From a virus, in the IMG/VR virus record IMGVR_UViG_3300025113_000011, positions 1-31,808 of that record: 31,808 nucleotides of DNA. One strand, given 5' to 3'. The translations under genes and the position numbers were made by a program. Numbering within the stretch: position 1 is the first letter of the stretch; each line of letters opens with the position of its first letter. Positions 2,597 to 23,483 of this stretch are shown piece after piece. The notes beneath the pieces are model-generated. The model saw only the letters and a program-made list of their open reading frames with translations, was not told the origin of the DNA and did not search any database.

Positions 2597-3837
2597 TGGC
2601 GCTCCTCGACCGGATCGGCGCTCACCGTGAAGCGGTTAGGTCCGATGAGGTCACTCAACAGGAGTTCGCGGATTTGTTGACCGGGTCGACGGGTCGGGCA
2701 AGGTCGGGTGTGACGGTAACGGATCAGCGGGTTTTGGGGTTGTCGGCGTGGTGGCGTGGCGTCCGGTACCTATCCGAGACTGTGGCGGGACTACCCATAT
2801 TCACCTATTTACGCACCGGCGGCGATGAGCGCCGCAAGGTCGTGTCGCCCGGTTGGCTGGCTCGACCGTCCGAGGAGGTGCCACGGTTCGCGTTGTTCGA
2901 GTTCTATATGATGTCGATGCTTCACCGCGGCAACGCTTTCGGTTTCAAGAATCGGGGCGACACCGGACAGGTCGTCGACATCGTACCATTGCACCCGGAC
3001 CGGGTCCGGTACGGCCTAGCCGATGGCCGCAAAGTGTTCGAGGTTACCGGCAACGATCAGCGCAAACATTCGTTTACGTCACGGGAGATTCTACATATTC
3101 CGTCGCTGTCGTCGGACGGATATTTCGGGATTGATCCGATCCGGGCTCACGTTCACGGGTTAGGCGCGGTCGCCGCAGCGGATGAGTTCGCGGGCCGGGC
3201 GTTCTCGCAGGGCACGTCGATGGGCGGGTACATCAAAATGCCGGGCCGTCTCGACGATGTGGAGGCGGACAGGGTGCGGGCGCAGTGGCGACGATTACAC
3301 AACGGCTTGGCTAACGCACACGAGTTCGGGATACTCGGCGACGGCGCAACATATGAAACGATCGGACTCGACCCGCAACAAACTCAGCTATTAGAGACAC
3401 GTAAATACGGGGTAACCGAGATCGCCCGGATTCTCGGCGTGGTCCCTCACAAACTGTACGACCTCGAGCGGGCGACGTTCTCGAACATCGAACACCAGGC
3501 GATCGAGTCGGTGCAGGACTCGATCATGCCGTGGCTCATTCGGCTCGAAACATGGATCAACCACGACCGGTCGCTGGTGTCGCCGACAACGTTCCACGAG
3601 TTCGTGGTCGAGGGTTTGCTGCGGGGCGACACGAAAGCACGCATGGAGGCGTATTCGATCGCGATTTCGGGCGGGTTTATGAGTCCGCACTTCGCGGCGA
3701 GCCGTGAGAACTGGGACGCGCCGGACGCTTTGCGGTACTGGCAACGGCCGTTGAACACTGCGCTACTGACCGAGGAATCCGCACCGGGCGGCGACACAGA
3801 CCCACAAGAACTAGAAGTAGGAGGTCAATCAACATGA
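2596..3837 (+). CDS. Portal protein (HK97 family)
   Basis: A 413-residue portal. It forms the dodecameric ring through which DNA enters and leaves the head. Typical features are the early Ser-Ala-Trp-Trp-Arg-Gly-Val-Arg-Tyr-Leu-Ser-Glu segment near residue 50, the Gly-Asn-Ala-Phe region with Pro-Leu-His-Pro-Asp-Arg-Val, the Gly-Ile-Asp-Pro-Ile segment, and the carboxyl Glu-Ile-Ala-Arg-Ile-Leu-Gly-Val-Val-Pro-His-Lys-Leu motif. Length matches the family. GTG at 2596 overlaps the preceding stop. The next gene starts inside its stop (ATGA), so translation is probably coupled. Confidence 0.95.
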   Translation: MALLDRIGAHREAVRSDEVTQQEFADLLTGSTGRARSGVTVTDQRVLGLSAWWRGVRYLSETVAGLPIFTYLRTGGDERRKVVSPGWLARPSEEVPRFALFEFYMMSMLHRGNAFGFKNRGDTGQVVDIVPLHPDRVRYGLADGRKVFEVTGNDQRKHSFTSREILHIPSLSSDGYFGIDPIRAHVHGLGAVAAADEFAGRAFSQGTSMGGYIKMPGRLDDVEADRVRAQWRRLHNGLANAHEFGILGDGATYETIGLDPQQTQLLETRKYGVTEIARILGVVPHKLYDLERATFSNIEHQAIESVQDSIMPWLIRLETWINHDRSLVSPTTFHEFVVEGLLRGDTKARMEAYSIAISGGFMSPHFAASRENWDAPDALRYWQRPLNTALLTEESAPGGDTDPQELEVGGQST

Positions 3838-4586
3838 CCGAACGTCAACTGATCGAGCGGACCGTACCGCTCCTCGACCTAGAGATCGAACGTGCCGGCG
3901 ACGGTCGCACGGTAGTCGCCTACGCCGCGGCGTTCGAGATCCAACACCGCGTGTTCGACACGTACGACGGCGACATCGACGAGATCATCGACCGCGCAGC
4001 GTTCAACCGGACTATCGGCAACGGGACGCAACCGCAGGTCATATTCAATCACGGCCGCGATTTGTTCGGTGAGTCATCGGACCGGTTCGCGATGCCGTTG
4101 GGGACACCGGTCGAGATCCGCGCCGAGGAACGTGGTTTACTCACTCGCACGAAATACGCGCGCACCGACCTCGCCGATGAAGTCCTAGAACTGATCCGCG
4201 CCGGCGCTATCCGCGGACAGTCATTCCGTGGGGCGATGTACCGGTCACAAACCGAGGGCGAAACCAGCGACGGTCGTCCGGTGTGGCGGCGCCTTGAGTT
4301 AGGATTAACAGAGTACGGACCGACACCGTTCCCTCAAGACGAGGGCGCTGTCATGTTGGCGCTGCGATCGGCGGCGCTGCTCGATTCTACCGTGACCGAC
4401 CCGATCACCGATCCCGCCGAACATGGCATATCGGAAGATCACTCGGGCACACCAACCGAAACCACAGAGGAACCGTCCGCCGAACCGGCACCGGTACTCG
4501 ACCCAGGTTCGGTCATCACCGCGTTAGCGAACGCTCAGCGACGCCGACGCATAACTATCAATCGAAAGGACCAGACCAATGTCTGA
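3834..4586 (+). CDS. Prohead maturation protease (HK97 gp4 / S78 type)
   Basis: A 250-residue protease that would trim capsid proteins during head maturation. His73 in FNHGRD and Ser130 in GQSFRG are the expected catalytic pair. Glu160 in the LTEYGPTPFPQDEGA segment corresponds to the conserved acidic strand of the family. The fold ends near residue 185. The rest is a Pro/Glu/Thr-rich tail that may be removed. AGGAGGTC precedes the ATG. The gene overlaps the portal stop by four bases and the capsid start by eight. Confidence 0.92.
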   Translation: MTERQLIERTVPLLDLEIERAGDGRTVVAYAAAFEIQHRVFDTYDGDIDEIIDRAAFNRTIGNGTQPQVIFNHGRDLFGESSDRFAMPLGTPVEIRAEERGLLTRTKYARTDLADEVLELIRAGAIRGQSFRGAMYRSQTEGETSDGRPVWRRLELGLTEYGPTPFPQDEGAVMLALRSAALLDSTVTDPITDPAEHGISEDHSGTPTETTEEPSAEPAPVLDPGSVITALANAQRRRRITINRKDQTNV

Positions 4587-6159
4587 GATCATCACACTCG
4601 ACGAGCTCCACGTTCGCCGGGAAGAACTACTCAACGAAATAGATTCGGTGCTAGACACCGCGCTCGAGGCCGAACGGTCGACGTTGCTCGACGACGAACG
4701 CGCACGCCACGACGCCGCTGTCACCGAACTGGGCACGATCGACGAACAGATCGAGTCCGCGGAGGTCGAGGCGGCAGATCAGGGCCGGTTCGCTCAGCGT
4801 TCCAGCCGGCGCAAGTTCACGGCACCAAACATTAATTTGGGTGCGGCATCGGTGAAAGGCGACCGGTCGCTCGACGAGCTCCAGGCCGTTACCCGCGAAA
4901 CCGTGCGGGCCGGTTCGTTCACTCAGTCCGGCCGGTTCATCGCTGACCGCCACGGCGCCGTGAACGATGTCGAACCGCTCCAGATCGAGCGGGGCGGCGT
5001 CCATGTGAACGCACCGCGGTACACAGATTTCGTGCCGGAGCACGCCCGGATCGTCGAACGGTTCCAGCAACAGGTATCGGACATGGTTCTGTTCGGGCAC
5101 CTCACCTCGAAAGGTGAAGTGTCGACCGCTGAAGCGTTCGACATGGCACGCTCCAATCCTCGCCTAGAGGACGGATACCGTGACGTGTTGCGTGCGATGG
5201 ACGTCGACACGGCCGGCGAGGGCGGCAACTGGGTACCTACCGGTATCGGTGCGACGCTCCATGAGAAGGTTCGTGCATCGGGCAAGATCGCGCCGTTGTT
5301 CGCTCGGGTGAACATTCCCACGAATCCGTGGAAGTGGCCGGTCGAGGGCGCGGACGCTACGGCGTACCGTGTCGCCGAACCGATCTCGGACACAGCGACC
5401 GGACCGGCCGCATCGACTCCGGGCACGGTGGCCGCGACGTTCGACGCCGAGATTTTCGGTGGTCGAGTGTTGACATCACGTAGCCTCGAAGCCGATTCGG
5501 CTATCGCTATCTTGCCGTTCATTACCGGCAAGCTGGCGCAGGCGTTCGTCGACGCTGAGGAAGCTGCGATCCTCGACGGCGACACCGACGGCACGCACCA
5601 GGACTCCGACGTGGGCGCATCGACTACCGATGCACGCACAGCGTGGGACGGGCTGCGCAAGCGGGCACTAGCGAACGCGTCGACGAACGGCGCCGCGGCG
5701 GCGTCGGTGGCGATCCTGCGCACCACTAGGGCGCTCATGGGCAAATGGGGCCTCGACCCGATGCAAACCGTTTACATTTGCGGACCGAAGTCCTACTACG
5801 CGCTCCTCGCAGATACCGAGGTCACGTCTGTGGAGAAGTACGGGTCCGCTGCGACGGTACTCAACGGCGAACTGGGCAGGGTCAACGGTTCACCGCTGAT
5901 CGTGTCCGAGCACGTCCGCGAGAACCTGAACGCGTCGGGTGTCTATGACGGCGTGACGACCACCAAGAGCTACGCGCTTGCCGTGAACCGCGGCGAGTGG
6001 GCGATCGGTCAACGGGCCGGCCTAGCGGTCGAAACCGATGACAGCATTTACCGCGAGACATACCAGCGGGTACTCGTCGGGTTCATGCGGGAGGACTTCC
6101 AGAACATCGGGGACGCCTCCGGTAACGACGACACCGCCATCGCATACAACCTGACCTAA
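4579..6159 (+). CDS. Major capsid protein (HK97 fold, with scaffolding domain)
   Basis: A 526-residue capsid subunit. Residues 1-75 are charged and predicted coiled coil, like the delta scaffolding domain removed by the protease encoded just upstream. The body from about residue 130 carries typical HK97-fold segments: GEGGNWVPTGIG, NPWKWPVEGADATAYRVAE, GRVLTSRSLEADSAI, VDAEEAAILDGDT, and the late NRGEWAIGQRAGLAVETDDS with Arg-Val-Gly-Phe-Met-Arg-Glu-Asp. It is longer than the 385-residue HK97 protein, the excess lying mostly between the coiled coil and the fold. AAAGGACC precedes the ATG. A hairpin follows the stop. Confidence 0.93.
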   Translation: MSEIITLDELHVRREELLNEIDSVLDTALEAERSTLLDDERARHDAAVTELGTIDEQIESAEVEAADQGRFAQRSSRRKFTAPNINLGAASVKGDRSLDELQAVTRETVRAGSFTQSGRFIADRHGAVNDVEPLQIERGGVHVNAPRYTDFVPEHARIVERFQQQVSDMVLFGHLTSKGEVSTAEAFDMARSNPRLEDGYRDVLRAMDVDTAGEGGNWVPTGIGATLHEKVRASGKIAPLFARVNIPTNPWKWPVEGADATAYRVAEPISDTATGPAASTPGTVAATFDAEIFGGRVLTSRSLEADSAIAILPFITGKLAQAFVDAEEAAILDGDTDGTHQDSDVGASTTDARTAWDGLRKRALANASTNGAAAASVAILRTTRALMGKWGLDPMQTVYICGPKSYYALLADTEVTSVEKYGSAATVLNGELGRVNGSPLIVSEHVRENLNASGVYDGVTTTKSYALAVNRGEWAIGQRAGLAVETDDSIYRETYQRVLVGFMREDFQNIGDASGNDDTAIAYNLT

Positions 6160-7927: not shown

Positions 7928-8835
7928 TGGCAACCGGAATGGATAGCCAATTTGGGATCAAAACAGAATCGGTTTACGGGACGGCTGTAGTGGTCGACAC
8001 GTTCATACCGATCCTCGGTGAGTCGATGGCCCGAGAGGAGGAGTTCACCGTCTCGGAAGGGATCATCGCCGGTAACAGGTTGGTCACGTCGGATCAGTGG
8101 AACAGCGGCAACCTCACGATCTCGGGGTCGATCGAGTCCGAGTTATACACCGAGAACATGCGGACACTGCTCGAACATATGTTGGGCACCGTGACCGGTA
8201 CGGGTCCATGGACTTTCACGCCGGGTACGTTGCAAGGTAAGTCGTTCACGATGCAGGTCGGTAAACCGTCGTTATCGGCCGTGCATCCGTTCACGTATGC
8301 GGGATGCAAAATCACCGGTTGGGAAATAGCTCTCTCAGCGGGTGAGATCGCGACGTTCGGGCTGGACGTAGTGGCTCAGTCAGAGACGACCGCTACGGGG
8401 TTAGCTACCGCGTCGTATCCGACGATCCTGCCGTACAAGTTCACGCATGGCACCGTCAACTACAACAACGCGGCGCTCGACGTGAAACAGATCACCATTT
8501 CGGGTGATTCGATGCTCAACACGGACCGACGCTACATCGGCACGCAGACTATCGCTGAGCCGATCGAGGAGGACCGTCGAGAGTTCACCGGGTCGATGAC
8601 CGTCGATTTCGCGTCGCTGGCTATCTATAACGATTTCGTGGCGCACACCGAACGTGAGATCGAACTGGTGCTCAACGCTGGCGGCGGTAACACGGTAACG
8701 ATCACGATGAACTGTCGGATCGACGGGTCGACACCGGCGTTGTCGGGTCGTGGCCTAGTCGAGCAGGACGTACCGTTTACGGTGATAAAAGAAACAGCGG
8801 GCACCGGGATCACGATCGTGGTCACCGAGACATAA
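7927..8835 (+). CDS. Major tail protein (tail tube)
   Basis: A 302-residue beta-rich protein at the tail tube position. It opens MATGMDSQFGIKTESVYGT, typical for the actinophage tube family, with later segments GNLTISGSIESELYTENM, LLEHMLGTVTGTGPWTFTPG, and FTYAGCKITGWEIALSAGEIATFGLDV. The carboxyl half (EFTGSMTVDF, FTVIKETAG) matches the same family. It polymerises around the tape measure to form the tail shaft. Abundant structural genes of this kind usually lie just upstream of the chaperone frameshift pair, as here except for one intervening gene. Confidence 0.88.
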   Translation: MATGMDSQFGIKTESVYGTAVVVDTFIPILGESMAREEEFTVSEGIIAGNRLVTSDQWNSGNLTISGSIESELYTENMRTLLEHMLGTVTGTGPWTFTPGTLQGKSFTMQVGKPSLSAVHPFTYAGCKITGWEIALSAGEIATFGLDVVAQSETTATGLATASYPTILPYKFTHGTVNYNNAALDVKQITISGDSMLNTDRRYIGTQTIAEPIEEDRREFTGSMTVDFASLAIYNDFVAHTEREIELVLNAGGGNTVTITMNCRIDGSTPALSGRGLVEQDVPFTVIKETAGTGITIVVTET

Positions 8836-9309
8836 ATGGCGGCGCGTCGGCGGGACACTAGTTCAGCGGTCGCGGTTGAGGGCCTCGACGACTTTCGCCG
8901 TGACCTCAAACGGTTCCAAGATGGCATCGACGGCGGCACGGAATTAGGCAGACTCAACCGGCGACTAGCGGAGTTCATTGTCGGCAAAGCCGAGGATATC
9001 GGTACCAGGCTCGGCGGTGTCCACGGTCACGTTGTCCGCAACAATTCGTTACGGGCGCTCGGCGCGCAACGCAACTCCGAAATTGCCCTCGGCGGGGCGG
9101 CGGAAAAACACGGCCCGGTGTTTGGCGCCGAGTTCGGTTCGCACTACTACGGCCAGTTCCCGGCGTGGCGCGGCAACCAACACGAAGGCGGCGACGTCGG
9201 TTACATGTTGTATCCGGCGTTGAGAGACAACATCGACGAGGGCATGGACCGTTATTGGAACGACATCGAGGACCTAGCTCGGCGGGCGTTCCCGAAAAAA
9301 ATCAATTAA
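8836..9309 (+). CDS. HK97 gp10-like neck / tail completion protein
   Basis: A 157-residue protein. The core at residues 75-115, where Ala-Leu-Gly-Gly-Ala leads to Phe-Gly-Ala-Glu-Phe-Gly-Ser and then Gln-Phe-Pro-Ala-Trp-Arg-Gly-Asn, is characteristic of the gp10-like family of actinobacterial phages. The start helix contains FRRDLKRFQDG. These proteins usually sit before the tail tube gene; here the gene comes directly after it, with the ATG abutting the tube stop. Whether it works at the neck or in the tail is not shown by the sequence. Confidence 0.7.
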   Translation: MAARRRDTSSAVAVEGLDDFRRDLKRFQDGIDGGTELGRLNRRLAEFIVGKAEDIGTRLGGVHGHVVRNNSLRALGAQRNSEIALGGAAEKHGPVFGAEFGSHYYGQFPAWRGNQHEGGDVGYMLYPALRDNIDEGMDRYWNDIEDLARRAFPKKIN

Positions 9310-9324
9310 CCGAGGGAGACAGTA

Positions 9325-9672
9325 ATGGCTAAAGCACCTAAACCGAGACGGGACACAACCGACGTGTTTCGGTTCGAGATAAACGGCCAGGCGTACCGGT
9401 TCGATCCCATGAAATTGTCGTCGAACGACGAACGGGACCTACTCCGGGAGGTTGGCTGGTCGATCCCCGAAGCGCTGTCGAAACTCGACAACGACTCGGC
9501 GTCGGTGCTGGCGGTGCAAGCGATGCTATTCCTCGCTAGGAGGTCGTGCGGTGAACCGGTCCAGTTCGATGATTGCACGGTCACGTTTGAGGACTTCACG
9601 ACACTGAACGTAATCGTCGACGACGAATCGTCGGGGGTTGACGATACCCCAAAAGCGCTAGACACCGCTTAG
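9325..9672 (+). CDS. Tail assembly chaperone, short form (G-like)
   Basis: A 115-residue acidic protein between the tube region and the tape measure. This position and the frameshift near its end identify it as the lambda gpG-like chaperone that helps the tape measure fold and recruits tail tube subunits. Segments are FRFEINGQAYRFDPMKLSS, ERDLLREVG and SVLAVQAMLFLARRSCGEPV. GAGGGAGACAG precedes the ATG. A fraction of ribosomes should slip at 9648-9654 to make the longer product. Confidence 0.85.
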   Translation: MAKAPKPRRDTTDVFRFEINGQAYRFDPMKLSSNDERDLLREVGWSIPEALSKLDNDSASVLAVQAMLFLARRSCGEPVQFDDCTVTFEDFTTLNVIVDDESSGVDDTPKALDTA

Positions 9673-9791
9673 TCGATGTTGCGCCGACATTCGCGGCGGA
9701 GTTCGGGCTAATGCCGTGGGATTTGGACCGGTTGACTTTCGAGGAGGTCGACGTGTTCGTGCGTTGGCTCCAAGCGAAGGCCGACGCGTAA
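9325..9791 (+). CDS. Tail assembly chaperone, frameshifted long form (GT-like)
   Basis: A -1 slip on CCCAAAA (9648-9654) joins the first 110 residues of the short form to 45 residues read from 9654 to the TAA at 9789-9791, giving about 155 residues. The added part contains Phe-Ala-Ala-Glu-Phe-Gly-Leu-Met-Pro-Trp-Asp-Leu-Asp, which is the conserved carboxyl module of actinophage GT proteins, and it has no convincing start codon of its own. The zero-frame codons are ACC CCA AAA, the correct phasing for tandem -1 slippage. In phages the two forms occur in a fixed ratio and both are needed for tail assembly. Confidence 0.85.
9648..9654 (+). promoter_or_regulatory. -1 programmed frameshift heptamer CCCAAAA
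   Basis: The heptamer has X XXY YYZ form (C CCA AAA in the zero frame) and lies 15 bases before the zero-frame stop codon at 9670-9672. AGCG at 9654-9657 can pair with CGCT a few bases downstream to make a small hairpin that may stimulate slipping; that structure is weak evidence. Confidence 0.85.
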
Positions 9792-9821
9792 CGCCGCGAG
9801 AAGAATCGGAGGAGGTGAAAT

Positions 9822-12221
9822 ATGGCTAGAGAACGCGAACTACGGGTAGCTATCACTGGTGACGCGTCGTCGCTTAACAGGTCGCTTGACTCGGCCGGCG
9901 GGAAGATGGGCAAGCTCGGCGGCAAAGCGAAACTCGCCGGGGCTGCGGCCGCTGCGGGTGTTGTCGCTGCGGGCGTCGCGGTCGCGGCGTCGATCAATAA
10001 AGCGATGGGGTTCGAGAATCAAATGCGTGAGGTGTTCACGCTCCTGCCCGGTATCTCCAAAAAAGCGATGGACGGAATGTCCAAAGACGTCCTCGGGTTC
10101 TCTACCGAGTTCGGGGTCCTACCCGAGAAAGTCGTGCCGGCGTTGTATCAGTCTTTGTCGGCGGGTGTCCCTCAAAACAATGTGTTCGAGTTCTTGGAAA
10201 CGGCGCAGATGGCCGCGCGGGCCGGTGTAACGGATCTCACGACGTCGGTCGACGGGATCTCATCGGTGATGAACGCGTACGGCTCCGATGTCCTCTCCGC
10301 GACCGAGGCATCGGATCAAATGTTTACGGCGGTCCGGCTCGGTAAGACAACGTTCGAGGAGATGTCTACGTCGTTGTCGAACGTGACACCGGTCGCTGCG
10401 GGTATCGGAATCAGTTTCGGTGAGGTCGCTGGGTCGTTAGCGACGCTCACCGCGCAGGGCATCAAAACACCGCAAGCTACGACGCAACTGCGGGCGATGT
10501 TCGTCGAACTGGGCAAGTCGGGGTCTATCGCCGCCAAGAACTTTGAGGAAATGAACGACGGGATCTCGTTCGAGAAGTTCGTCAAAGGCGGCGGCACCGT
10601 CGAGCAAGCGCTCGGCAAGCTCGCCGCGAAGGCGAAGGACTCGGGGACCGGGCTCCAAAACATGTTCGGGTCGGTCGAGGCCGGCACCGCGGCGTTAGCG
10701 TTAGCGAAAGACACGGACAAGTTCCGGGAGAATGTCGGCGAGATGGGCAAGTCGGCGGGCGCTACGAAAACGGCGTTCGAGACGATGTCTGGCGGTTTGC
10801 AACCGGTGATGGACAAGATCAAAGCGTTCGCGGATGTGGCAATGATAAAGGTCGGGCAGGTCGTGATACCGATCCTTATGCAGGCCGTGGAGTGGGTCGA
10901 GAAGAACTGGCCGGCGATCTCGGCGGTGTTCGAGCGGTCGATGGCGGCGATCTCGGCGGCGGTCGAGCCGCTCATCGTTTGGTTCGAGAAGAACTGGCCG
11001 ATGATCTCGGAAATAGCGTCGAAAGCGTTCGCGGTGATCGCAGCGATGGTCCGCAAGTATTGGCCCCAGATCCAGGCGACGATCATGGACGCGGTCGAGG
11101 CGATCGGGGCCGTGATAGCTGCGAACGTGAAAGTGATCCAAACCGTTTGGGATCTGTTCGGCAAAAACATTATGTCGTTCGTGCAACGGGTATGGCCGCG
11201 TATCCAACAGATCATCCAGGGCGCAATGGACATAATCCAGGGTGTGATCCGAACCGTGACCGCGCTGATTAAAGGCGACTGGGGCGCGGCGTGGGACGGG
11301 ATCAAACAAGTATTTCGTGGGGTTTGGTCGACGATTCAAGGTTTGGTCGGCGCCGCGATGGAGTTCGTCCGAACCGCGATCGCGAACGTGTTAGTGGTCA
11401 TAGGAAAATTGTGGGGTGTCGCATGGCGTGCGATCAAGGCGGTCGTCACCGGGATCTGGAACACGATCAAGTCGACGATCTCGACGGTCATAAACACGAT
11501 CCAATCTGTGATCTCGACGGCTCTCAATGTGATTAAGTCGACATGGAACGCGGCGTGGTCGACGGTTAAGACGGTCGCGTCGACGGTGTGGAACACGATC
11601 AAGTCGACGATCTCGACGGTGTGGAACACGATCAAGTCGACGATCTCGACCGGCGTCAACAACGCTAAGACAACCGCGATCAACGGATTCCAGGCGATCG
11701 TCAATTTCGTGCAGGGATTACCGGGCAAGCTCCTCGGGTTCGCGACTCAACTGTTGAACGCTGGTGCGAAGCTCGGCGGGAAGATCATCACCGGGATCAT
11801 CGACGGGTTGAGCGGGTTCGCGTCGGGTGCCGCGGGGTTCGCTGGCGACGCCGTAGCCGCGATCGCGGGCATAGGTAAGGACGCTCTAAACGGAATTATT
11901 GGCGCAATAAACGACCTATTCCCCGACGAGATCGGCAGGATCGAAGTTAAAGGGTTCACGGTGTTCCCAGGGATCGACCTGCCAGATAATCCGATCCCCT
12001 CATTACATTCCGGCGGCCGGTTCCAGGCGCCGGTCCCAGGCGGCGAGGGTCTAGCGATCTTGCGCGACGGCGAACGAGTCAGCTCAAGGGGATCGCTCGC
12101 GTCCCGCGGCGGGTCGGGGCAAACGATCCAGATCCTCATCGACGGTCGAGTCCTGACCGAGGCGATAGTGCGGGACACGAACCGTAACGGCCCGGCACAA
12201 ATACGGGTAGCGGCACGATGA
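9822..12221 (+). CDS. Tape measure protein
   Basis: A 799-residue protein that sets tail length and probably travels into the cell envelope. The start has an Ala/Val-rich hydrophobic stretch (about residues 38-58). A typical body follows: FENQMREVFTLLPG, LSAGVPQNN, GSDVLSATEASDQMFTAVRLGKTTFEEM and ATLTAQGIKTPQATTQLRAM. Next comes a Trp-periodic helical part (repeated EKNWP and similar) and a repeat block with three copies of WNTIKSTIST at residues 546, 590 and 601. At roughly 1.5 angstrom per residue, the known scaling for siphoviruses, the tail would be near 120 nm. GGAGGAGGTGA at 9808-9817 is a near-ideal ribosome site. Confidence 0.94.
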   Translation: MARERELRVAITGDASSLNRSLDSAGGKMGKLGGKAKLAGAAAAAGVVAAGVAVAASINKAMGFENQMREVFTLLPGISKKAMDGMSKDVLGFSTEFGVLPEKVVPALYQSLSAGVPQNNVFEFLETAQMAARAGVTDLTTSVDGISSVMNAYGSDVLSATEASDQMFTAVRLGKTTFEEMSTSLSNVTPVAAGIGISFGEVAGSLATLTAQGIKTPQATTQLRAMFVELGKSGSIAAKNFEEMNDGISFEKFVKGGGTVEQALGKLAAKAKDSGTGLQNMFGSVEAGTAALALAKDTDKFRENVGEMGKSAGATKTAFETMSGGLQPVMDKIKAFADVAMIKVGQVVIPILMQAVEWVEKNWPAISAVFERSMAAISAAVEPLIVWFEKNWPMISEIASKAFAVIAAMVRKYWPQIQATIMDAVEAIGAVIAANVKVIQTVWDLFGKNIMSFVQRVWPRIQQIIQGAMDIIQGVIRTVTALIKGDWGAAWDGIKQVFRGVWSTIQGLVGAAMEFVRTAIANVLVVIGKLWGVAWRAIKAVVTGIWNTIKSTISTVINTIQSVISTALNVIKSTWNAAWSTVKTVASTVWNTIKSTISTVWNTIKSTISTGVNNAKTTAINGFQAIVNFVQGLPGKLLGFATQLLNAGAKLGGKIITGIIDGLSGFASGAAGFAGDAVAAIAGIGKDALNGIIGAINDLFPDEIGRIEVKGFTVFPGIDLPDNPIPSLHSGGRFQAPVPGGEGLAILRDGERVSSRGSLASRGGSGQTIQILIDGRVLTEAIVRDTNRNGPAQIRVAAR
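11457..11654 (+). repeat. 33-base repeats inside the tape measure gene
   Basis: A 33-base unit starting TGGAACACGATCAAGTCGAC occurs at 11457, 11589 and 11622, with diverged copies between. The first two are 132 bases apart, exactly four units. It encodes an 11-residue helical repeat with Trp and Ile-Lys-Ser-Thr-Ile-Ser-Thr. The last two copies are almost identical, suggesting recent duplication. Confidence 0.85.
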
Positions 12222-15513: not shown

Positions 15514-15862
15514 CGCCGGGCTGGCTGCGGTGCTAGTCGCCGCGGTGACCGTCGTCGGGACTGTCGGCGCAGCGTTCTTGTCGAAACGTGGCAGAGAGCT
15601 CGGCGCTCAGGCCGCCGCGGATGTCGCTGTGCTCGAAGGATACGACGAACTAACAGCGCACTTCAGAGAGACGGTCCGTGACTTGAACGCGAAAAACGCT
15701 GCGTTGCAAATGATGATCGAAGCGATGCACGAGGAGATCCGGGATTTGCGCGATGACCACGCGGCGTTGTGGCACTCGCTGCGTCAGGCGGGCATACCGA
15801 TACCGGACGGGGTAAGTCCACCGCGACGCCATTTTAGACCAAACCAGGAAGGCACACTATGA
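15506..15862 (+). CDS. Membrane-anchored coiled-coil protein (DUF2746-like)
   Basis: A 118-residue protein with one N-terminal membrane helix (residues 4-27) followed by a charged coiled coil (about 35-95: HFRETVRDLNAKNAALQMMIEAMHEEIRDLRDD). The layout resembles the DUF2746 proteins found near the lysins of actinobacterial phages, proposed as holin partners or spanin-like factors. The assignment is from memory of that layout. It overlaps the previous gene by eight bases and the fibre gene by four. Confidence 0.5.
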   Translation: MDSAGLAAVLVAAVTVVGTVGAAFLSKRGRELGAQAAADVAVLEGYDELTAHFRETVRDLNAKNAALQMMIEAMHEEIRDLRDDHAALWHSLRQAGIPIPDGVSPPRRHFRPNQEGTL

Positions 15863-18800
15863 GTACTCCGACGTTAGCGATGGGCGGCGCGAGAGTTGAT
15901 CTAACGTTCACGGCGGGGTCCGATGTTGCGTGGACCGCGTCATTCGTTGACGTGCTGGGCGACCCTTTGGACATCACCGCGTCAACGTGGACCGCTGAGA
16001 TCCTCGACGGTCCCGGCGGTGACCTCCTCGCGACCGTCACGGTCGTTGAGAACACGTCGACGTTAGAGTTCGGTTTGACCGACACCGAAACAGCAGCACT
16101 CCCTCGCCGTTGCGTTTGGTCGTTGGTCGAGTCGGCGGCCGGTGACCGGCCCATTCTGTCGGGGTCGGTCACTGTGTCCGCGGCCGGGTCCGGTGGCGTA
16201 ACCAGCAGTCAGGGCGACACGGTCACTGTTGCGTTGACACCGACGATGATCGAGGTCCAAACGATCGGCGCGGGCGGTGGCGGTGTCGAAGACATCGTGC
16301 ACCGTGCCGATTTGGACAACCCGCATCAGGTCAACGCCACCGACGTCGGCCTCGGCAACGTCAACAACACCTCCGACGCCAACAAACCAGTATCGACCGC
16401 TCAGCAAACCGCGCTGAACGGCAAAGCCAACACGTCACACAATCATGTCGTCGCGGATGTCACCGACGCCGGTGCGCTAGCGGCACTTGACGAGGTCACA
16501 GCGCCGCTGGTCGACTCCGCGGCCGCGACCGACGGGTATGTACTAACCGCGGACGGCGCCGGCGGTGCAGCGTGGGAAGTGGTCGCGACGGGTGCGTCCA
16601 CGCTCGGTGATCTAACCGACGTCGGGAACGGCACACCCACGAACGGTAACGCGATCATGGGCGACGGCGACTCGTGGGAGTCAAGGGCACTAGTGAAGGC
16701 CGATGTCGGACTGTCCAATGTTGACAACACCTCCGACGTCAACAAACCGATCTCGACCGCGACACAAACCGCGCTGGATGGTAAGACCGCGACCGGGCAC
16801 ACGCATTCGTTGGCGAACATCACCGACGACGGCGCTCTCGCAGCGCTCAACACGGTCGGTACTACTCAAATAGACGACGGTGCGGTTACGTTGGCGAAGC
16901 AAGCGAACGTGGTGCAAGCCAGGATCTTCGGTCGGCAAGCCGCGGGCGGCACCGGTGTACCGGAAGCGTTGACCGCAGCGCAAGCTAAGACCGTGCTCGC
17001 GATCGCCGCGGGCGACGTGTCCGGTCTCGGTGCGTTAGCAACCTTGGGTACGGTCGGCACGACTCAGATCGACAACAACGCGGTGACGTTAGGCAAACTC
17101 GCCACGATGGCCACCGATAGCTTCCTGGGTCGTGATACGGCAGCGACCGGCAACGTCGAAGTCCTATCCGCGGCCACGGCCAAAACGATCTTGGCTATCA
17201 CATCGGGTGACGTATCCGGTCTCGGCGCGCTCGCCACATTGTCGACGGTCACCGCGACGCAACTCGGCACCGACGCCGTAACCACAGTCAAGATATTGGA
17301 CGCGAACGTCACCCTAGCCAAACTCGCGAACCTCGCTCAGGCAACGTTCATTGGTCGCCAAGCCGGCGCAGGCACCGGCGTTCCCCAAGCGCTCACCGCG
17401 GCGCAGGCTAAGACCGCGTTAGCGATCGAAGCCGCCGAACTCCTATCGACCGGTGAAGCGGGTGGTACGAAGTTCCTGCGCGAGGACGGCGACGGCTCGG
17501 TGTCTTGGCAGACCGTGCCGTCCGGCGGTAACCCCGAAGGCACGTCGGTGCTATCCACCGGCGAAACCGGCGCGGTCAAGTTCCTACGTGAGGACGGCGA
17601 CGGCACCTCAAGCTGGCAAGTCCCACCAGGGTCCGCGACGACGCTCCCCGGTCTAACCGACGTTGACGACGCCACCGTCAACACCTCATCGGGGCATGTG
17701 CTGCGGGCTAACGGTTCAACGTGGGTGAACGCACAACTGTCACTAGCTGACATTTCGGGTGATGGTGCGTTGGCGGCGTTGAACACTGTTGGCACCACCG
17801 AGATCGACAACAACGCGGTGACGCTCGGCAAGATGGCCACAATCGCCACCGATTCGTTCCTGGGCCGCGACACCGCGGCCACCGGGAACGTCGAAGTCCT
17901 ATCAGCTGCTACCGCCAAAGCGATACTCGCGATTCAAGGCACCGAACTCTTGTCGACCGGCGAAGCCGGCGGGACGAAGTTCCTGCGCGAGGACGGCGAC
18001 GGGACGTGTTCCTGGCAGACCGTCGCCGGCGGCGGGTCCCTCCCGGCGCTCTCCGATGTCGACGACGCCACAGTCAACACCTCATCCGGACATGTGCTCA
18101 GGGCGAACGGATCAACATGGATAAACGCTCAGCTAGCCGCGGGTGACGTATCCGGTCTCGGTGCCCTCGCGACGTTGGGCACGGTCGGGACGACTCAGAT
18201 AGACAACAACGCGGTGACGTTGGGGAAGATGGCCACGATGGCCACCGACAGCTTCCTCGGTCGGGACACCGCAGCAACCGGCAACGTCGAAGTCCTATCC
18301 GCGGCAACCGCGAAAACCATCCTAGCTATCGCAGCGGGTGACGTATCCGGCCTCGGAGCGTTAGCGACACTCTCAACGGTTACGGCGTCGCAGTTGGGCT
18401 CCGACGCGGTTACGACGGTCAAGATCCTCGACGCGAATGTGACGCTTGCGAAGATGGCGAACATCGCTACCGATAGCTTCATCGGCCGCGACACGGCGGG
18501 TTCGGGTGTGCCAGAGGTGCTATCCGCCGCGACCGCGAAAACGATCCTAGCGATCGCCGCCGGCGACGTATCCGGTCTAGGCGCGCTCGCCACACTGTCG
18601 ACCGTTACTGCGACCCAGTTGGGCACTGACGCTGTAACCGCGGTGAAGATCCAGGCCGACGCCGTGACCACGGTCAAGATCCTTAACGCCAATGTGACAT
18701 TAGCGAAGATGGCTGATTTGGCTCAGTCGACGATCATTGGTCGAGCCGCCGGCGCTGGTACTGGTGTTCCCACAGCGTTGTCGAACACGCAGGTCAAGAC

Positions 18801-19788
18801 GTTGTTGGCGATCGCGTCGGGTGACGTGTCCGGTTTGGGTGCGTTGGCGACGCTCTCGACCGTGACCGCGACCGAGTTGGGTACCGACGCTGTGACTTCG
18901 GTGAAGATCCAGAACAGTGCCGTGACGTTGGCGAAGATCGCGAACATCGCTACGGCCAGGATCCTCGGCCGTGTCACCGCATCATCCGGTGTGGTCGAGG
19001 AACTAACCGCAGCGCAAACCAAAACGATGCTAGCGATCGCGTCGGGTGACGTGTCCGGTCTCGGTGCGTTGGCCACTCTCGGGTCGGTCGCGGCGGGGCA
19101 GATCGACACGAACGCGGTAACAACCGTCAAAATATTGGACGCCAACGTGACGTTGGCGAAACTAGAGAACCGTGCTCAGGCCACGTTCATCGGTCGAGCG
19201 TCCGGCGCGGGTACCGGTGTGCCGCAGGAACTCACCGCGACACAGGCCCGCACGATATTGAACGTCGCGGACGGTGCCACGAACGTGCAGGCCGCATCGA
19301 CCACGGTGTCAGGTCACTCGGAGTTGGCGACGACAGCGGAGATCGACGCCGGTACCGACACAGTCCGCACAATGGTCCCCGATCTGTTCGCAGCGTCACG
19401 GTACGGCACTAAAGACATGAACGTCGCGGTGTTCGGATCGTCAACAGCGTGCGCTGTGGGTAACGGCACCACCGGGATCGTCGTCCCGGCAGCGCTCAAC
19501 GGCATGAACATTATTGAGGTTGTCGCCGCGGTCCATACTGCGGGTACGACGGGGACGATGGACATTCAGATCCGGCGTAGGAGAGGCTCGACCGACACTG
19601 ACGTGCTGTCGACTAAGGCGACGATCGACACGACAGAACACACCTCGGTCACGGCCGCTACCGCATATGTCGTGAACACCGCTAACGATGACCTAGCTAC
19701 CGGGGACATGATCTTCGTGGATGTCGACGCGATTCATACCACAGCGGCGTTGGGGTTGTCGGTTGTGATCTCAGCACGGATCCCATAA
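15859..19788 (+). CDS. Large repetitive tail fibre protein
   Basis: A 1309-residue protein, the longest in the window. Residues 1-110 form a beta-rich attachment-like domain (VDLTFTAGSDVAWTASFVD...). Next come two tail-fibre repeats of the Asn-Pro-His, Val-Gly-Leu-Gly-Asn-Val-x-Asn-Thr-Ser-Asp, Lys-Pro-x-Ser-Thr-Ala type ending in His-Asn/Thr-His. From about residue 375 to 1135 there is a tandem array built on GDVSGLGALATL (seven copies), with linked TDSFLGRDTAATG and VTTVKILDANVTLAKL segments. Three LREDGDG inserts are also present. The last 160 residues form a non-repeated domain. It is probably a trimeric fibre that binds the host. Its position after lysis genes, away from the minor tail genes, is common in some actinophages. 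Confidence 0.82.
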   Translation: MSTPTLAMGGARVDLTFTAGSDVAWTASFVDVLGDPLDITASTWTAEILDGPGGDLLATVTVVENTSTLEFGLTDTETAALPRRCVWSLVESAAGDRPILSGSVTVSAAGSGGVTSSQGDTVTVALTPTMIEVQTIGAGGGGVEDIVHRADLDNPHQVNATDVGLGNVNNTSDANKPVSTAQQTALNGKANTSHNHVVADVTDAGALAALDEVTAPLVDSAAATDGYVLTADGAGGAAWEVVATGASTLGDLTDVGNGTPTNGNAIMGDGDSWESRALVKADVGLSNVDNTSDVNKPISTATQTALDGKTATGHTHSLANITDDGALAALNTVGTTQIDDGAVTLAKQANVVQARIFGRQAAGGTGVPEALTAAQAKTVLAIAAGDVSGLGALATLGTVGTTQIDNNAVTLGKLATMATDSFLGRDTAATGNVEVLSAATAKTILAITSGDVSGLGALATLSTVTATQLGTDAVTTVKILDANVTLAKLANLAQATFIGRQAGAGTGVPQALTAAQAKTALAIEAAELLSTGEAGGTKFLREDGDGSVSWQTVPSGGNPEGTSVLSTGETGAVKFLREDGDGTSSWQVPPGSATTLPGLTDVDDATVNTSSGHVLRANGSTWVNAQLSLADISGDGALAALNTVGTTEIDNNAVTLGKMATIATDSFLGRDTAATGNVEVLSAATAKAILAIQGTELLSTGEAGGTKFLREDGDGTCSWQTVAGGGSLPALSDVDDATVNTSSGHVLRANGSTWINAQLAAGDVSGLGALATLGTVGTTQIDNNAVTLGKMATMATDSFLGRDTAATGNVEVLSAATAKTILAIAAGDVSGLGALATLSTVTASQLGSDAVTTVKILDANVTLAKMANIATDSFIGRDTAGSGVPEVLSAATAKTILAIAAGDVSGLGALATLSTVTATQLGTDAVTAVKIQADAVTTVKILNANVTLAKMADLAQSTIIGRAAGAGTGVPTALSNTQVKTLLAIASGDVSGLGALATLSTVTATELGTDAVTSVKIQNSAVTLAKIANIATARILGRVTASSGVVEELTAAQTKTMLAIASGDVSGLGALATLGSVAAGQIDTNAVTTVKILDANVTLAKLENRAQATFIGRASGAGTGVPQELTATQARTILNVADGATNVQAASTTVSGHSELATTAEIDAGTDTVRTMVPDLFAASRYGTKDMNVAVFGSSTACAVGNGTTGIVVPAALNGMNIIEVVAAVHTAGTTGTMDIQIRRRRGSTDTDVLSTKATIDTTEHTSVTAATAYVVNTANDDLATGDMIFVDVDAIHTTAALGLSVVISARIP
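16983..19275 (+). repeat. Tandem repeats of about 200-225 bases in fibre gene
   Basis: Seven copies of the GDVSGLGALATL-encoding block occur near 17007, 17209, 18140, 18338, 18560, 18818 and 19044. Their third codon positions differ while the protein stays nearly constant. Copies divide into two subtypes: a GTVGTTQIDNNAVTLGKL type and a STVTATQLGTDAVTTVKIL type. Confidence 0.85.
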
Positions 19789-19792
19789 CCCG

Positions 19793-20992
19793 GTGGCACG
19801 AATATCGTGTATCCACAAAACCGCGTCCACGACGAGCGCTGCCGGTGGACCGTACGCGTCGATCTCCGACTGGTTAGGGACGGTGGATCGGGTCACCAAC
19901 GGCGACGAAATCGGCGTCATATGCGACGACACAACCTACGACGAAAATCTGACTATCAATCATGGACCGTCGGGGTCGGCTGCTATACGTCTCACCGCTA
20001 ACGACGGGGTACTGGTCGCCACGGTCGATGGTTCCGCAGCACCGAACGTGCGAGGTGTCGGCCCGTTCCGTGACGGCGCCGGTATCGACTCCGACAACGG
20101 CGGCGACCTCATCTTGATCACCGTGAACAACGTCATTATTGATCATCTCAATCTGATTCAGAACAGTTCAACCGGGACCGGCGACGCTGCGGTGCGGGTC
20201 ACGGGTAACCGGTCAGAGATCGGGATTTTGTATTGCACGATCGAAACGCAAACCAGCCAAACCGATTCCGATGGCGTAGCGATCACCGGCACCACCGCTT
20301 ACGGCAAGATCCTTGTCGGTGGGTGTTCGTTCTACGGGCAGAACCGGGCCGGTGTGATGCGGGAGCAAACGTCATCGTCCGGCACTCACTCATCGACCGC
20401 GTTGTGGGTGTTTCATTGCAGCGGATACTCCAACCGCAACGACGATGCACTGGCGGGCCTGGTGTTCATTTCGCAAGCCTCGGCGTTGGACACCGACAAC
20501 GTTCATATTTACAACTGCGCGGGCGGGTACTACCAGTCCGGTGGCACGAGGGTCACGTCGTTCGGTGCGGGTACGACCACGAGGGGCACACCGGCGGGGT
20601 CGGTTGTGTGGGCCGGTAGAGGAAACTTCGAGGACGGCGCCGGTTTCGCAGATTTGGACTCGACCGACAACACCACGAACTGGGTGTCAGGCTCAGCGAA
20701 CCCTGCGACCGTGGACACGACACAAACCTCGGGCACATATTTCGTTGTGAACGAGCTCACAGCCCCAGCGGATTACCGTCCGTTGGACACTGCTGCGGGT
20801 AATAAGATCATCGCCAATGGATGTCCGACAGCGTTCATACCGGCCACGTCACCGTTCATTGATGCATATTGGAATAACACCACGGATATGCGCGGCAACC
20901 GCTGGAATCCGAACACACCCGATATCGGGGCGTTCAGTTACGCCGATCATCCGCAGGTCCCGTTCAGGACTCAAGGCCAACATGTTGGATAG
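19793..20992 (+). CDS. Right-handed beta-helix-like surface protein, copy 1
   Basis: A 399-residue protein with strand-turn periodicity (ILITVNNVIIDHLNLIQNSS, SEIGILYCTIET, GKILVGGCSFYGQNRAGV, NVHIYNCAGGYY) typical of right-handed beta-helix tailspike or pectate-lyase-like folds. It is a paralogue of the protein at 21807: both start MARIS-x-IHKTA, share RLTANDGVL and DGSAAPNVRG, and end with a D-x-GA-x-SYA then Gln-Gly-x-His-Val segment. It probably forms a trimeric receptor-binding or polysaccharide-degrading spike; no catalytic residues were identified. GTG start at 19793, four bases after the fibre stop. Confidence 0.7.
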   Translation: MARISCIHKTASTTSAAGGPYASISDWLGTVDRVTNGDEIGVICDDTTYDENLTINHGPSGSAAIRLTANDGVLVATVDGSAAPNVRGVGPFRDGAGIDSDNGGDLILITVNNVIIDHLNLIQNSSTGTGDAAVRVTGNRSEIGILYCTIETQTSQTDSDGVAITGTTAYGKILVGGCSFYGQNRAGVMREQTSSSGTHSSTALWVFHCSGYSNRNDDALAGLVFISQASALDTDNVHIYNCAGGYYQSGGTRVTSFGAGTTTRGTPAGSVVWAGRGNFEDGAGFADLDSTDNTTNWVSGSANPATVDTTQTSGTYFVVNELTAPADYRPLDTAAGNKIIANGCPTAFIPATSPFIDAYWNNTTDMRGNRWNPNTPDIGAFSYADHPQVPFRTQGQHVG

Positions 20993-21001
20993 GGAGACAC
21001 A

Positions 21002-21334
21002 ATGACCAAACCGATCATGGTAACAACGATCTATAAAGGCGTCTTTGCCGGGCTAGTACCGGACGACCAGGACTACGCCGCGGAGACCATCGAGCTGACC
21101 GAGGCTCGGATGGCTTTGGAGTGGGGCACCCGAGAGATCCATGCGTTGGCTGTGACCGGGCCAGGGTTGAAGGGTCGAGTCTCGAACCCTGCCACGGTGA
21201 CTCTGCGGGGGATCTCGGCGGTGTGGGATGTGGCACCGGCGGCGTGGACTCAATGGCAGCTATCGCCGTGGTCCGATGACCCGGATCGGCGTGAGCAGAT
21301 GATCGCCGATGCGATAGCAGAGCAAGATGCTTAA
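21002..21334 (+). CDS. DUF6948-like small phage protein
   Basis: A 110-residue protein. The order VTTIYKGVFAGLVPDD, ETIELTEARMALEWGTREIHALAVTGPGLKGRVSNP, then TLRGISAVWDV resembles, from memory, the DUF6948 family of small phage proteins, in which a 'gives-colour-by-position' core of ELTEAR and LA-x-x-GP is conserved. Its function is unknown. It is the first of a three-gene cassette placed between the two beta-helix paralogues, and GGGAGACACA gives a clear ribosome site. The family match needs a profile search. Confidence 0.5.
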   Translation: MTKPIMVTTIYKGVFAGLVPDDQDYAAETIELTEARMALEWGTREIHALAVTGPGLKGRVSNPATVTLRGISAVWDVAPAAWTQWQLSPWSDDPDRREQMIADAIAEQDA

Positions 21335-21419
21335 CGATCTGCGGGCCGCGCTGTTGTACTACTTGGAGAAAGCGTGCCAACGCCCGGTCGAGGACAAGGA
21401 CGACAGCGATGCCGATTGA
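21327..21419 (+). CDS. 30-residue ORF in the DUF6948-like cassette
   Basis: ATG at 21327 overlaps the end of the upstream gene by eight bases, and the TGA at 21417-21419 overlaps the next ATG (21409) by 11 bases. It encodes a short helix (DLRAALLYYLEKACQRPVED) followed by an acidic end. It fills what would otherwise be a 74-base gap, and overlapping frames are the rule in this genome, so I think it is translated. Function is unknown. Confidence 0.5.
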   Translation: MLNDLRAALLYYLEKACQRPVEDKDDSDAD

Positions 21420-21807
21420 TACCGTGTCGGTTACAGCGATGCTCGAAGCCGGAGCTTGCCACGAACAGGTCATCGAAGGCGTGTACTCCGCCGAAGGCAA
21501 CATCGTGTCCACGTACGCCGAGGCGGTCGAGTTGATCGAGTCCGGCGCCGGGGTTCACAACGCTCTAGAACTCCTCGACATGTTCACTGGTCGTATCGAC
21601 CCACCGGCACCGTTCGTACCGTTGGAGTATTCGACGAGAGGCCGTTTCGGTGCAGGGTACGGCATTGCCTACGGCACGTTCGACGACGCTGGGTACGGGT
21701 ACGGCGGCGGATCGTATGGCGACCCCGACAATTTCACTGGCGGCGGGTCCTATGGCAACCCCGACGCCTATGGCTCCAACGACGACCAATCGTATGGGTC
21801 GAGCTAA
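21409..21807 (+). CDS. Protein with Gly/Tyr-rich low-complexity tail
   Basis: A 132-residue protein in two parts. Residues 1-64 look folded and helical (TVSVTAMLEAGACHEQVIEG, AEAVELIESGAG, ALELLDMF). From about residue 75 on it is low complexity: Gly, Tyr, Ser, Asn and Asp repeats such as GYGIAYG, GYGYGGGSYGD and GGGSYGN. Such tails are disordered and can be adhesive or self-associating. It overlaps the second beta-helix gene by one base (TAATG), so the two are probably translated together. The family is not identified with confidence. Confidence 0.65.
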   Translation: MPIDTVSVTAMLEAGACHEQVIEGVYSAEGNIVSTYAEAVELIESGAGVHNALELLDMFTGRIDPPAPFVPLEYSTRGRFGAGYGIAYGTFDDAGYGYGGGSYGDPDNFTGGGSYGNPDAYGSNDDQSYGSS

Positions 21808-23051
21808 TGGCTAGGATCTCACTGATTCACAAGACCGCGACATCATGTACTCCGTCGGCGACGATCTATGCGACGGTCGCGGCGTGGGAGGCTTCGATCG
21901 ACCGGGCCACGAACGGCGATGAGACGGGCGTCATCGGAGACGATGCGGCCTATGCGGAACAGCCAACGTTCAACGCCACAGCGTCAGGGACCAGTATTTG
22001 CCGGTTGACCGCGAACGACGGTGTGCTGTTCACCCACATAGATGGGTCCGCCGCGCCGAACGTGCGGGGCGACGGGTCGATCCGGTCCGGTGCCAGGTTG
22101 GATCACACCGGCACACTCGACGGAATACTGATCTCGACGAACTATTGGGTCATCGACCACATCAACGTGATTCAGAGAACCACCGGAAACGACGACGACT
22201 GTATTCAGCACGCCGCGGCGCTCACCGGGTTCGCTGTCATTAACTGCAATTTTGAGCACACGACGACGCTGGCACGCACCGACGGCATCCACTTAGCGAA
22301 CGGTAACCACACCGATGTTCTCATCAACGGATGCTCATTTTTCAACATGTCCCGAGCGGGGATACACAGCTACCAGTCCACAACATCCGGTACGCACACC
22401 GTCAACTTTTTCGCGTCACACAACACGTTCTACCAGGCACGGGGGGTGGAGGCGACAACAGCGAACGCCGCGGCGATCAAACTCGGCACCCGCTCCAGCG
22501 GAGGGTCCGCTACCGCGAACCTCCACAACAACGTTTTCGGGACAACGTTGGCGACGGGCGCTGCGATCGTTCGACCATTAGTCGACGGACCGTACCTAAC
22601 GAGGGTCACACCGACCGGCACCGCTGTCTGGAACGGTGACACCAACTTTTCGGATGGGTCCCCGGCCGCTGATTTGACCGACATCGACGGCACCAACAAC
22701 CTCACGAACATCACGCACGGATCTTCCACCGCAGGGTCCACGAAGTTCACGACGCAAGCGTCCGGTAACTATGCGGTGTTGACTAACGGCACCGCCGGGA
22801 CCGCCGACTTCCGGCCGCTCGACGACGCCGCCGGGAACTACATTATCGGTAACGGCATCCCGACCGCGGACCTCCCGGACTGTCCGAACGCCACGATCGA
22901 CGGTTGGTGGAACACGATCAACGGCAAAGGCGCCCGAGACAAACGCGGGTATTTGTTTCACCCAACGACGCCGGACCTAGGCGCGTACTCCTACGCCAAC
23001 AACACTGCCGCGGATATTCCGTTCATCGCGCAAGGCGCCCACGTCAGCTAA
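21807..23051 (+). CDS. Right-handed beta-helix-like surface protein, copy 2
   Basis: A 414-residue paralogue of the 19793 product. Shared features are the MARIS-x-IHKTA start, a VDRATNGDE-like segment, RLTANDGVLF, DGSAAPNVRG, ATIDGWWNT near the end and the final GA-x-SYA plus Gln-Gly-Ala-His-Val. The middle has the same beta-helix periodicity (WVIDHINVIQ, FAVINCNFEHTTT, DVLINGCSFFNMSRAGIHSYQ) but different side chains. The frame is open far upstream, inside the Gly/Tyr gene; ATG 21807, overlapping that stop, aligns with the paralogue start. Two diverged spikes could extend host range. Confidence 0.7.
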   Translation: MARISLIHKTATSCTPSATIYATVAAWEASIDRATNGDETGVIGDDAAYAEQPTFNATASGTSICRLTANDGVLFTHIDGSAAPNVRGDGSIRSGARLDHTGTLDGILISTNYWVIDHINVIQRTTGNDDDCIQHAAALTGFAVINCNFEHTTTLARTDGIHLANGNHTDVLINGCSFFNMSRAGIHSYQSTTSGTHTVNFFASHNTFYQARGVEATTANAAAIKLGTRSSGGSATANLHNNVFGTTLATGAAIVRPLVDGPYLTRVTPTGTAVWNGDTNFSDGSPAADLTDIDGTNNLTNITHGSSTAGSTKFTTQASGNYAVLTNGTAGTADFRPLDDAAGNYIIGNGIPTADLPDCPNATIDGWWNTINGKGARDKRGYLFHPTTPDLGAYSYANNTAADIPFIAQGAHVS

Positions 23052-23066
23052 AACTTCGATGGGTTT

Positions 23067-23099
23067 TGACAGCCTGGTTGACAGCCTGTTTGACAGCCT
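23067..23099 (+). repeat. Iteron-like cluster 1: TGACAGCCT x3
   Basis: Exact TGACAGCCT copies begin at 23067, 23079 and 23091, a regular 12-base spacing, which puts them at about one helical turn. They begin 16 bases after the end of the second beta-helix gene. Confidence 0.9.
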
Positions 23100-23229
23100 C
23101 CACACCCGATATGGACCGAAACGGGCCTGTGATAGCACTGTAAAACCCTACAGAACCGCGGGATGGCGCAAGGCTGGTATGTCCCGCGAACCCGACTTTC
23201 GACAGTAAACACACCGAACCCCAGCCGGG
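23100..23229. other. Candidate former attP core or origin between repeat clusters
   Basis: This 130-base interval lies between two sets of three direct TGACAGCCT sites, the geometry seen where tyrosine integrases bind arm sites on both sides of an attP core. CGCGGGA at 23157-23163 and TCCCGCG at 23182-23188 form a 7-base inverted repeat. No tRNA-like 3' end is evident. A replication origin with iterons or an operator are alternatives. Confidence 0.35.
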
Positions 23230-23258
23230 TGACAGCCTGATTGACAGCCTGACAGCCT
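23230..23258 (+). repeat. Iteron-like cluster 2: TGACAGCCT x3
   Basis: Exact copies begin at 23230, 23242 and 23250 (spacings 12 and 8, the last two sharing one base). The cluster lies 21 bases before the GTG of the arm-binding-like gene. With cluster 1, it encloses a 130-base interval with small inverted repeats (23138-23142/23149-23153 and 23157-23163/23182-23188). Confidence 0.9.
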
Positions 23259-23279
23259 CCACGTCTACGATTCCGTGCT

Positions 23280-23483
23280 GTGAGAGGCACCAAACGCAAA
23301 CGCGGCACGGACCGATGGCAACTCCAAGTCTACGCGGGTAGACACCCCGACGGCCGGCGCCGGTTCGTCACCACGACTATCACCGCGCCGCACACCCGCG
23401 CCGGAGCCGACATCGCGGACCGGGCGTTAGCTGCGCTCGTCACCGAAGTCCAGCACCAACACCACGTTACCCAAAACACATAA
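23280..23483 (+). CDS. Orphan arm-DNA-binding domain, integrase-like N-terminus only
   Basis: A 67-residue basic protein. The order Arg-Gly-Thr-Lys-Arg-Lys-Arg-Gly, W-Q-L-Q-V-Y-A-G-R, Asp-Gly-Arg-Arg-Arg-Phe-Val, then a helix with ALAALVTEV matches the amino-terminal domain of phage tyrosine integrases (three-strand sheet plus helix that binds arm-type repeats). The core-binding and catalytic domains that should follow are missing: the frame ends at TAA 23481-23483, and no Arg-His-x-x-Arg or catalytic Tyr segment appears elsewhere. It may be a remnant of a deleted integrase or a stand-alone regulator of the adjacent TGACAGCCT sites. Confidence 0.6.
   Translation: MRGTKRKRGTDRWQLQVYAGRHPDGRRRFVTTTITAPHTRAGADIADRALAALVTEVQHQHHVTQNT

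Follow-up and report, generated by a model that had tools for sequence, protein, structure and literature searches.

A two-gene phage module of DUF6948 and Gly/Tyr-rich proteins, with a divergent copy between two spike paralogues

Genes of the DUF6948 family (Pfam PF22253) and genes for Gly/Tyr-rich (GY) proteins form a real two-gene module that co-occurs across very different phages. The window, by which we mean the entire 31,808-nt stretch of viral DNA that was analyzed (IMGVR_UViG_3300025113_000011), carries a divergent copy of this module in a cassette at 21002-21807 between two spike genes. We are nearly certain of the pairing in general and confident, to a slightly lesser degree, that it holds for the window. 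The module is widespread and apparently undescribed. In the literature searched, which excludes most subscription journals, we found no description of a GY-rich phage partner or of a phage-encoded pair of Sm-like and GY proteins, and no paper naming the DUF6948 family, which has no described function. To what is known of this family, the present analysis adds a predicted Sm-like fold and the GY partner.

Phage genomes are rich in small genes that have no assigned role. The module turns two of these into one testable unit that is found in gut and freshwater phages as well as in cultured phages of Pectobacterium, Iodobacter, Vibrio and Chlorobi, and the cultured carriers allow direct functional tests of the pair. 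It joins a predicted RNA-binding-type fold with an extreme low-complexity protein of the kind studied in eukaryotic condensates. The pair is easy to miss because annotations often omit the second gene or place it in the wrong frame.

Pairing of DUF6948 and Gly/Tyr-rich genes across phages

DUF6948 loci were collected with a DNA search pattern that encoded only the DUF6948 motif T[IV]xLxxAR[MN]xxYW and contained nothing from the GY gene. The pattern drew partly on a motif of the family; residues T29, L32, A35, R36 and W41 and the G-V-F run were built in by the pattern or filter, and their invariance is not counted as evidence. Sixty-five viral loci were fetched in this way, about 59-60 of which encode clear DUF6948 homologues from uncultured phages. 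Near-identical loci are present in the set, and 49 DUF6948 sequences were left at 92% identity.

A GY-rich ORF lies at most 470 nt downstream of the DUF6948 gene in 56 of 60 cases. The same criterion picked out none of 6534 random windows from these loci and one of 8800 from control phage contigs. The two genes usually overlap, the GY start nearest to the DUF6948 stop lying a median of 4 nt before the end of that stop. The gene just downstream of DUF6948 nearly always encodes a protein whose low-complexity sequence is built from GY, GD and GS dipeptides. GY proteins often have a short leader ending in RGxxP and are often fused to a C-terminal domain; the Gly and Tyr codons of the tract are mixed, with GGC and TAC predominating.

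A second branch of the family shows the same arrangement. Starting from a DUF6948-like protein of a gut phage, we reached 16 records, among them cultured phages of Iodobacter, Vibrio, Pectobacterium, Dickeya and Chlorobi. The ten loci examined from this branch, which include Pectobacterium, Iodobacter, Vibrio and Chlorobi phages, encode DUF6948 relatives according to the first-branch HMM (E 1e-7 to 2e-13). All ten have an adjacent GY protein, which in nine lies downstream; the exception is ctRVW222, where it lies upstream. The preliminary description, made from the sequence of the window alone, had proposed that these genes behave as a cassette, which holds for the DUF6948 and GY genes in both branches. 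Annotators have often missed the second-branch GY genes or read them in the wrong frame. Gene 25 of Chlorobiaceae phage CV-1-33 is the wrong, MAMAMA frame of a GY gene (locus L162, 5261-5531), and in ctRVW222, whose GY gene is at locus L164, 1458-2077, the DUF6948 gene has been given a false extended start within the GY tract.

The GY genes can be present in several copies. In locus L109, a tandem family of at least five GY genes (8044-10040 and 3748-4606) stands beside two DUF6948 genes on opposite strands; each copy opens with MQEQLIRGxMSR or a similar sequence and most close with EDIVCKSN or similar. The C-terminal domain of many GY proteins, seen at L127 (2514-2864) and other loci, is conserved as AFWRS..G.P.NGG...LHATL.PPKWKGERWWIVAL.GEVVGD..K and gave no convincing Pfam match. 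Pfam matches of GY proteins to TrAA12 and keratin were rejected as low-complexity artefacts.

Among 113 same-strand neighbours of the pair, the recurrent products are repressors, Erf, RecE/YqaJ, Sak4, HNH endonucleases and DnaB. A minority of pairs adjoin structural genes (L133, L111 and the Pectobacterium phages Taid and Sabo), and the L133 pair lies two genes from a beta-helix-like protein. The tail-type neighbour products that were tested show no relationship either to one another or to the spikes of the window; a common tail-fibre neighbour was looked for and rejected. No consistent linkage of the pair to receptor-binding genes was found, the neighbours being mainly DNA-metabolism and regulatory genes.

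The cassette and its surroundings in the window

The record carries tailed-phage genes including those for terminase (611), portal (2596), tape measure (9822) and endolysin (14250). Further along, a tail-fibre-like protein (15859) is followed by spike A (19793), the cassette (21002-21807) and spike B (21807); 3' of spike B lie a helix-turn-helix gene and genes for a methyltransferase, an Erf-type annealing protein and a replication initiator. The pair sits among tail genes, in the late operon near the early region. Spike A (19793..20992, + strand) is a putative beta-helix tail spike of 399 aa, and spike B (21807..23051, + strand) is its paralogue of 414 aa. Their 42-43% identity bears out the duplication noted earlier, and both flank the module from outside. 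Residues 342-383 of spike A match choice-of-anchor Q weakly (E 8e-4, under the cut-off). Nucleotide and protein searches of phage, plasmid, viral and genome collections found no relatives of either spike. Phages with the closest portals (52-55% identity) differ in the tail end and lysis region, and DUF6948 was not found in these portal relatives.

The tail-fibre-like protein (15859-19788; 1309 residues) is built with numerous internal repeats that are almost identical (phage tail repeat, PF12789). Just 3' of spike B, at 23060-23260, two clusters of 12-bp TTGACAGCCTGG direct repeats precede a 67-aa ORF (23280-23483) that by eye resembles a stand-alone integrase arm-binding domain and has no match in Pfam; the repeats could be arm-type sites or operators. 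No Rfam families were found in the window.

Three small ORFs occupy the cassette on the + strand, as the preliminary description had it: the DUF6948 gene (21002..21334; 110 aa), a 30-aa ORF (21327..21419) and the gene for a 132-aa protein, P3 (21409..21807), with overlaps of 8 and 11 nt. The tie of P3 to the second spike through a TAATG stop/start overlap (21805..21809, + strand) is likewise present in the sequence, and upstream of spike B there is no clear Shine-Dalgarno sequence. The product of the gene at 21002, described earlier as DUF6948-like, matches PF22253 at 52.8 bits (gathering cut-off 27; E 4.5e-14; profile positions 2-85 of 85), and an HMM of 49 homologues that excluded the window copy scores it at 68 bits (E 1.9e-20). 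Codon scores of the annotated frames (0.29 for DUF6948, 0.20 for the 30-aa ORF and 0.26 for P3) are on par with those of the core genes of the phage; antisense and shadow ORFs that compete with the cassette genes have negative scores. For the cassette proteins, as for the spikes, nucleotide and protein searches of these collections yielded nothing useful; the cassette and spike searches together gave only three plasmid hits, all sub-threshold.

Coding of the 30-aa ORF is plausible (GC3 0.77), and neither the fetched DUF6948 loci nor the protein families searched (Pfam, PHROGs) contain a match to it. Because this ORF has no counterpart in those loci, the unit consists of two genes, DUF6948 and the GY gene, and not of the three originally proposed; the 30-codon ORF would be incidental or local.

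P3 combines an N-terminal helical region of about 64 residues, for which no homologue was found, with a Gly/Tyr/Asp/Ser-rich low-complexity tail (21649..21804, + strand), and is the sole Gly/Tyr-rich ORF of the window. The tail, comprising the last 52 aa, contains 16 Gly, 8 Tyr, 7 Asp and 6 Ser, and includes two close copies and a weaker third of the unit GGGSYG[DN]PD. Repeats of this quality were reached in 9 of 20000 composition-preserving shuffles, so the repeat is real; its earlier reading as recent expansions is overstated for P3, given two close copies with mixed Gly and Tyr codons. AlphaFold2 predicts a disordered tail for P3 alone (pLDDT 42), which, obtained without an alignment, is weak evidence. 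P3 has no match to Pfam or to PHROGs tail families. An N-terminal domain also precedes the GY tract in two other GY proteins (L122, L133), but the similarity of the P3 domain to these "GAC" domains, including the shared "GAC" motif, is not significant.

By the measure used for the homologues, P3 is a GY-rich ORF on the same strand within 470 nt of the DUF6948 stop. The start that overlaps or abuts the DUF6948 stop, a common but not universal trait of the module, is absent from the window; P3 starts 75 nt beyond that stop, with the 30-codon ORF between them. A gap between the two genes is also found in some homologues, for example L100. Other GY genes encode long GYGDG tracts, next to which the P3 tail is short (about 52 residues) and irregular. 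P3 is the GY partner of the module by position and composition, rather than by proven homology.

Predicted Sm-like fold of DUF6948

The DUF6948 protein is predicted to fold into a small beta-barrel like that of Sm/LSm proteins, followed by a helical extension at the C-terminus; we consider this fold assignment probable. The AlphaFold2 model, based on 50 sequences, has a pLDDT of 91 and a pTM of 0.78. Nearly all of its top 50 Foldseek matches in the PDB are Sm/LSm proteins (E 0.02-0.09, probability ~1), with none at E 0.001. VIA-align gives Z-scores of 5.9-7.0 over about 60 residues (best, 62 residues at 2.3 Å), individually modest matches that include 3by7, an Sm-like protein of an uncultured organism. 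At Z below 8 these may reflect a common small-barrel arrangement, and they indicate likeness of fold rather than proof of Sm membership or RNA binding.

Of 50 homologues, 44 have an arginine in the turn between beta4 and beta5 (strands 64-69 and 71-76), the position at which Sm proteins have their R-G. In the window, the codons of Arg69-Gly70 in this turn (21206..21211, + strand) would correspond to the R-G of Sm2. Searches gave no match of DUF6948 to an Sm family in Pfam and no sequence match to solved structures in the PDB.

Candidate roles and comparison with known systems

Our preferred explanation, held tentatively and at somewhat less than an even chance, is that the predicted Sm-like protein and its coupled, disordered partner act on nucleic acid, probably RNA. 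Overlapping translation would deliver the DUF6948 and GY products together, and these may act as a complex in which the Sm-like protein binds nucleic acid, most likely RNA, while numerous weak contacts come from the disordered GY tail. The role of the module would then lie in gene expression or genome processing of the phage and not in spike structure; in this phage, placed between the spike paralogues, it would probably be expressed with the late tail genes. The nucleic-acid role of the pair, taken by itself, is equally tentative. Several features of the window argue against this explanation, namely the short and irregular GY part of P3, its orphan N-terminal domain, the 30-codon ORF between the genes and the tail-gene setting.

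The pair could instead work without binding nucleic acid, the barrel being a protein-binding factor or chaperone that partners the low-complexity protein. This would fit the near-obligate association of the two genes and the overlap at their starts, as well as the extra C-terminal domain on many GY proteins. The variable genomic location and the absence from portal relatives would suit an accessory (moron-like) factor, for example in host takeover, exclusion or counter-defence. The best structural matches, however, are RNA-binding Sm/LSm rings, and we regard a pure protein pair, like the accessory use proposed for it, as rather doubtful. The setting between the spikes, with P3 coupled to spike B through TAATG, raises a further possibility, in which the GY tail would give the spikes a flexible, sticky linker or tip that DUF6948 helps to assemble; the L133 pair near a beta-helix-like protein and the Pectobacterium phage pairs beside tail genes are in keeping with it. 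Most homologous pairs are nevertheless surrounded by genes for DNA metabolism and regulation, the tail-type neighbours show no kinship with one another or with the window spikes, and an Sm-like fold is not known from tail tips, so that this structural role is unlikely. Mere coincidence, in which P3 would be a small tail gene without kinship to the GY genes, Gly/Tyr-rich and next to DUF6948 by chance, would account for the orphan N-terminal domain and irregular tail. It is very improbable given that the GY criterion picks out one in 8800 random control windows, yet a GY-rich ORF lies downstream of DUF6948 both here and in 56 of 60 homologues.

The cassette had originally been suggested to provide either an adhesive linker of the spike or a separate accessory function. 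The accessory function is the better guess; the pair travels together across very different phages. The linker fares poorly against neighbours that are mainly repressor, recombination, endonuclease and helicase genes, and it is unlikely as a general role because most pairs elsewhere adjoin recombination or regulatory genes; the pair is probably not a part of the spike. A more specific form of the nucleic-acid explanation, to which we assign a low probability, is that the Sm-like ring protein and its coupled, fast-changing GY protein assemble into a nucleoprotein condensate or particle by which RNA of the phage or the host is controlled during infection.

Among known families, the 21002 product agrees with DUF6948 (PF22253) over the whole profile, above the curated cut-off. 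The resemblance to Sm/LSm proteins (LSm1-7 and archaeal SmAP, PDB 6ppq and 1i8f; 3by7) lies in residues 1-79 of the DUF6948 model, with five main strands, about 60 residues superposing at 2.0-2.3 Å with Z up to 7, and the arginine in the beta4-beta5 turn. In contrast to Sm/LSm proteins, DUF6948 has no detectable sequence similarity to them, carries added C-terminal helices and has a GY-rich partner gene. T-even gp38 is a glycine-rich phage tail adhesin, which P3 resembles in being small, rich in Gly and encoded next to the gene of a tail adhesin. The GY proteins differ from gp38-type adhesins in having GY/GDG/GSG dipeptide tracts rather than gp38-type motifs, and the pairs are located mostly away from tail genes.
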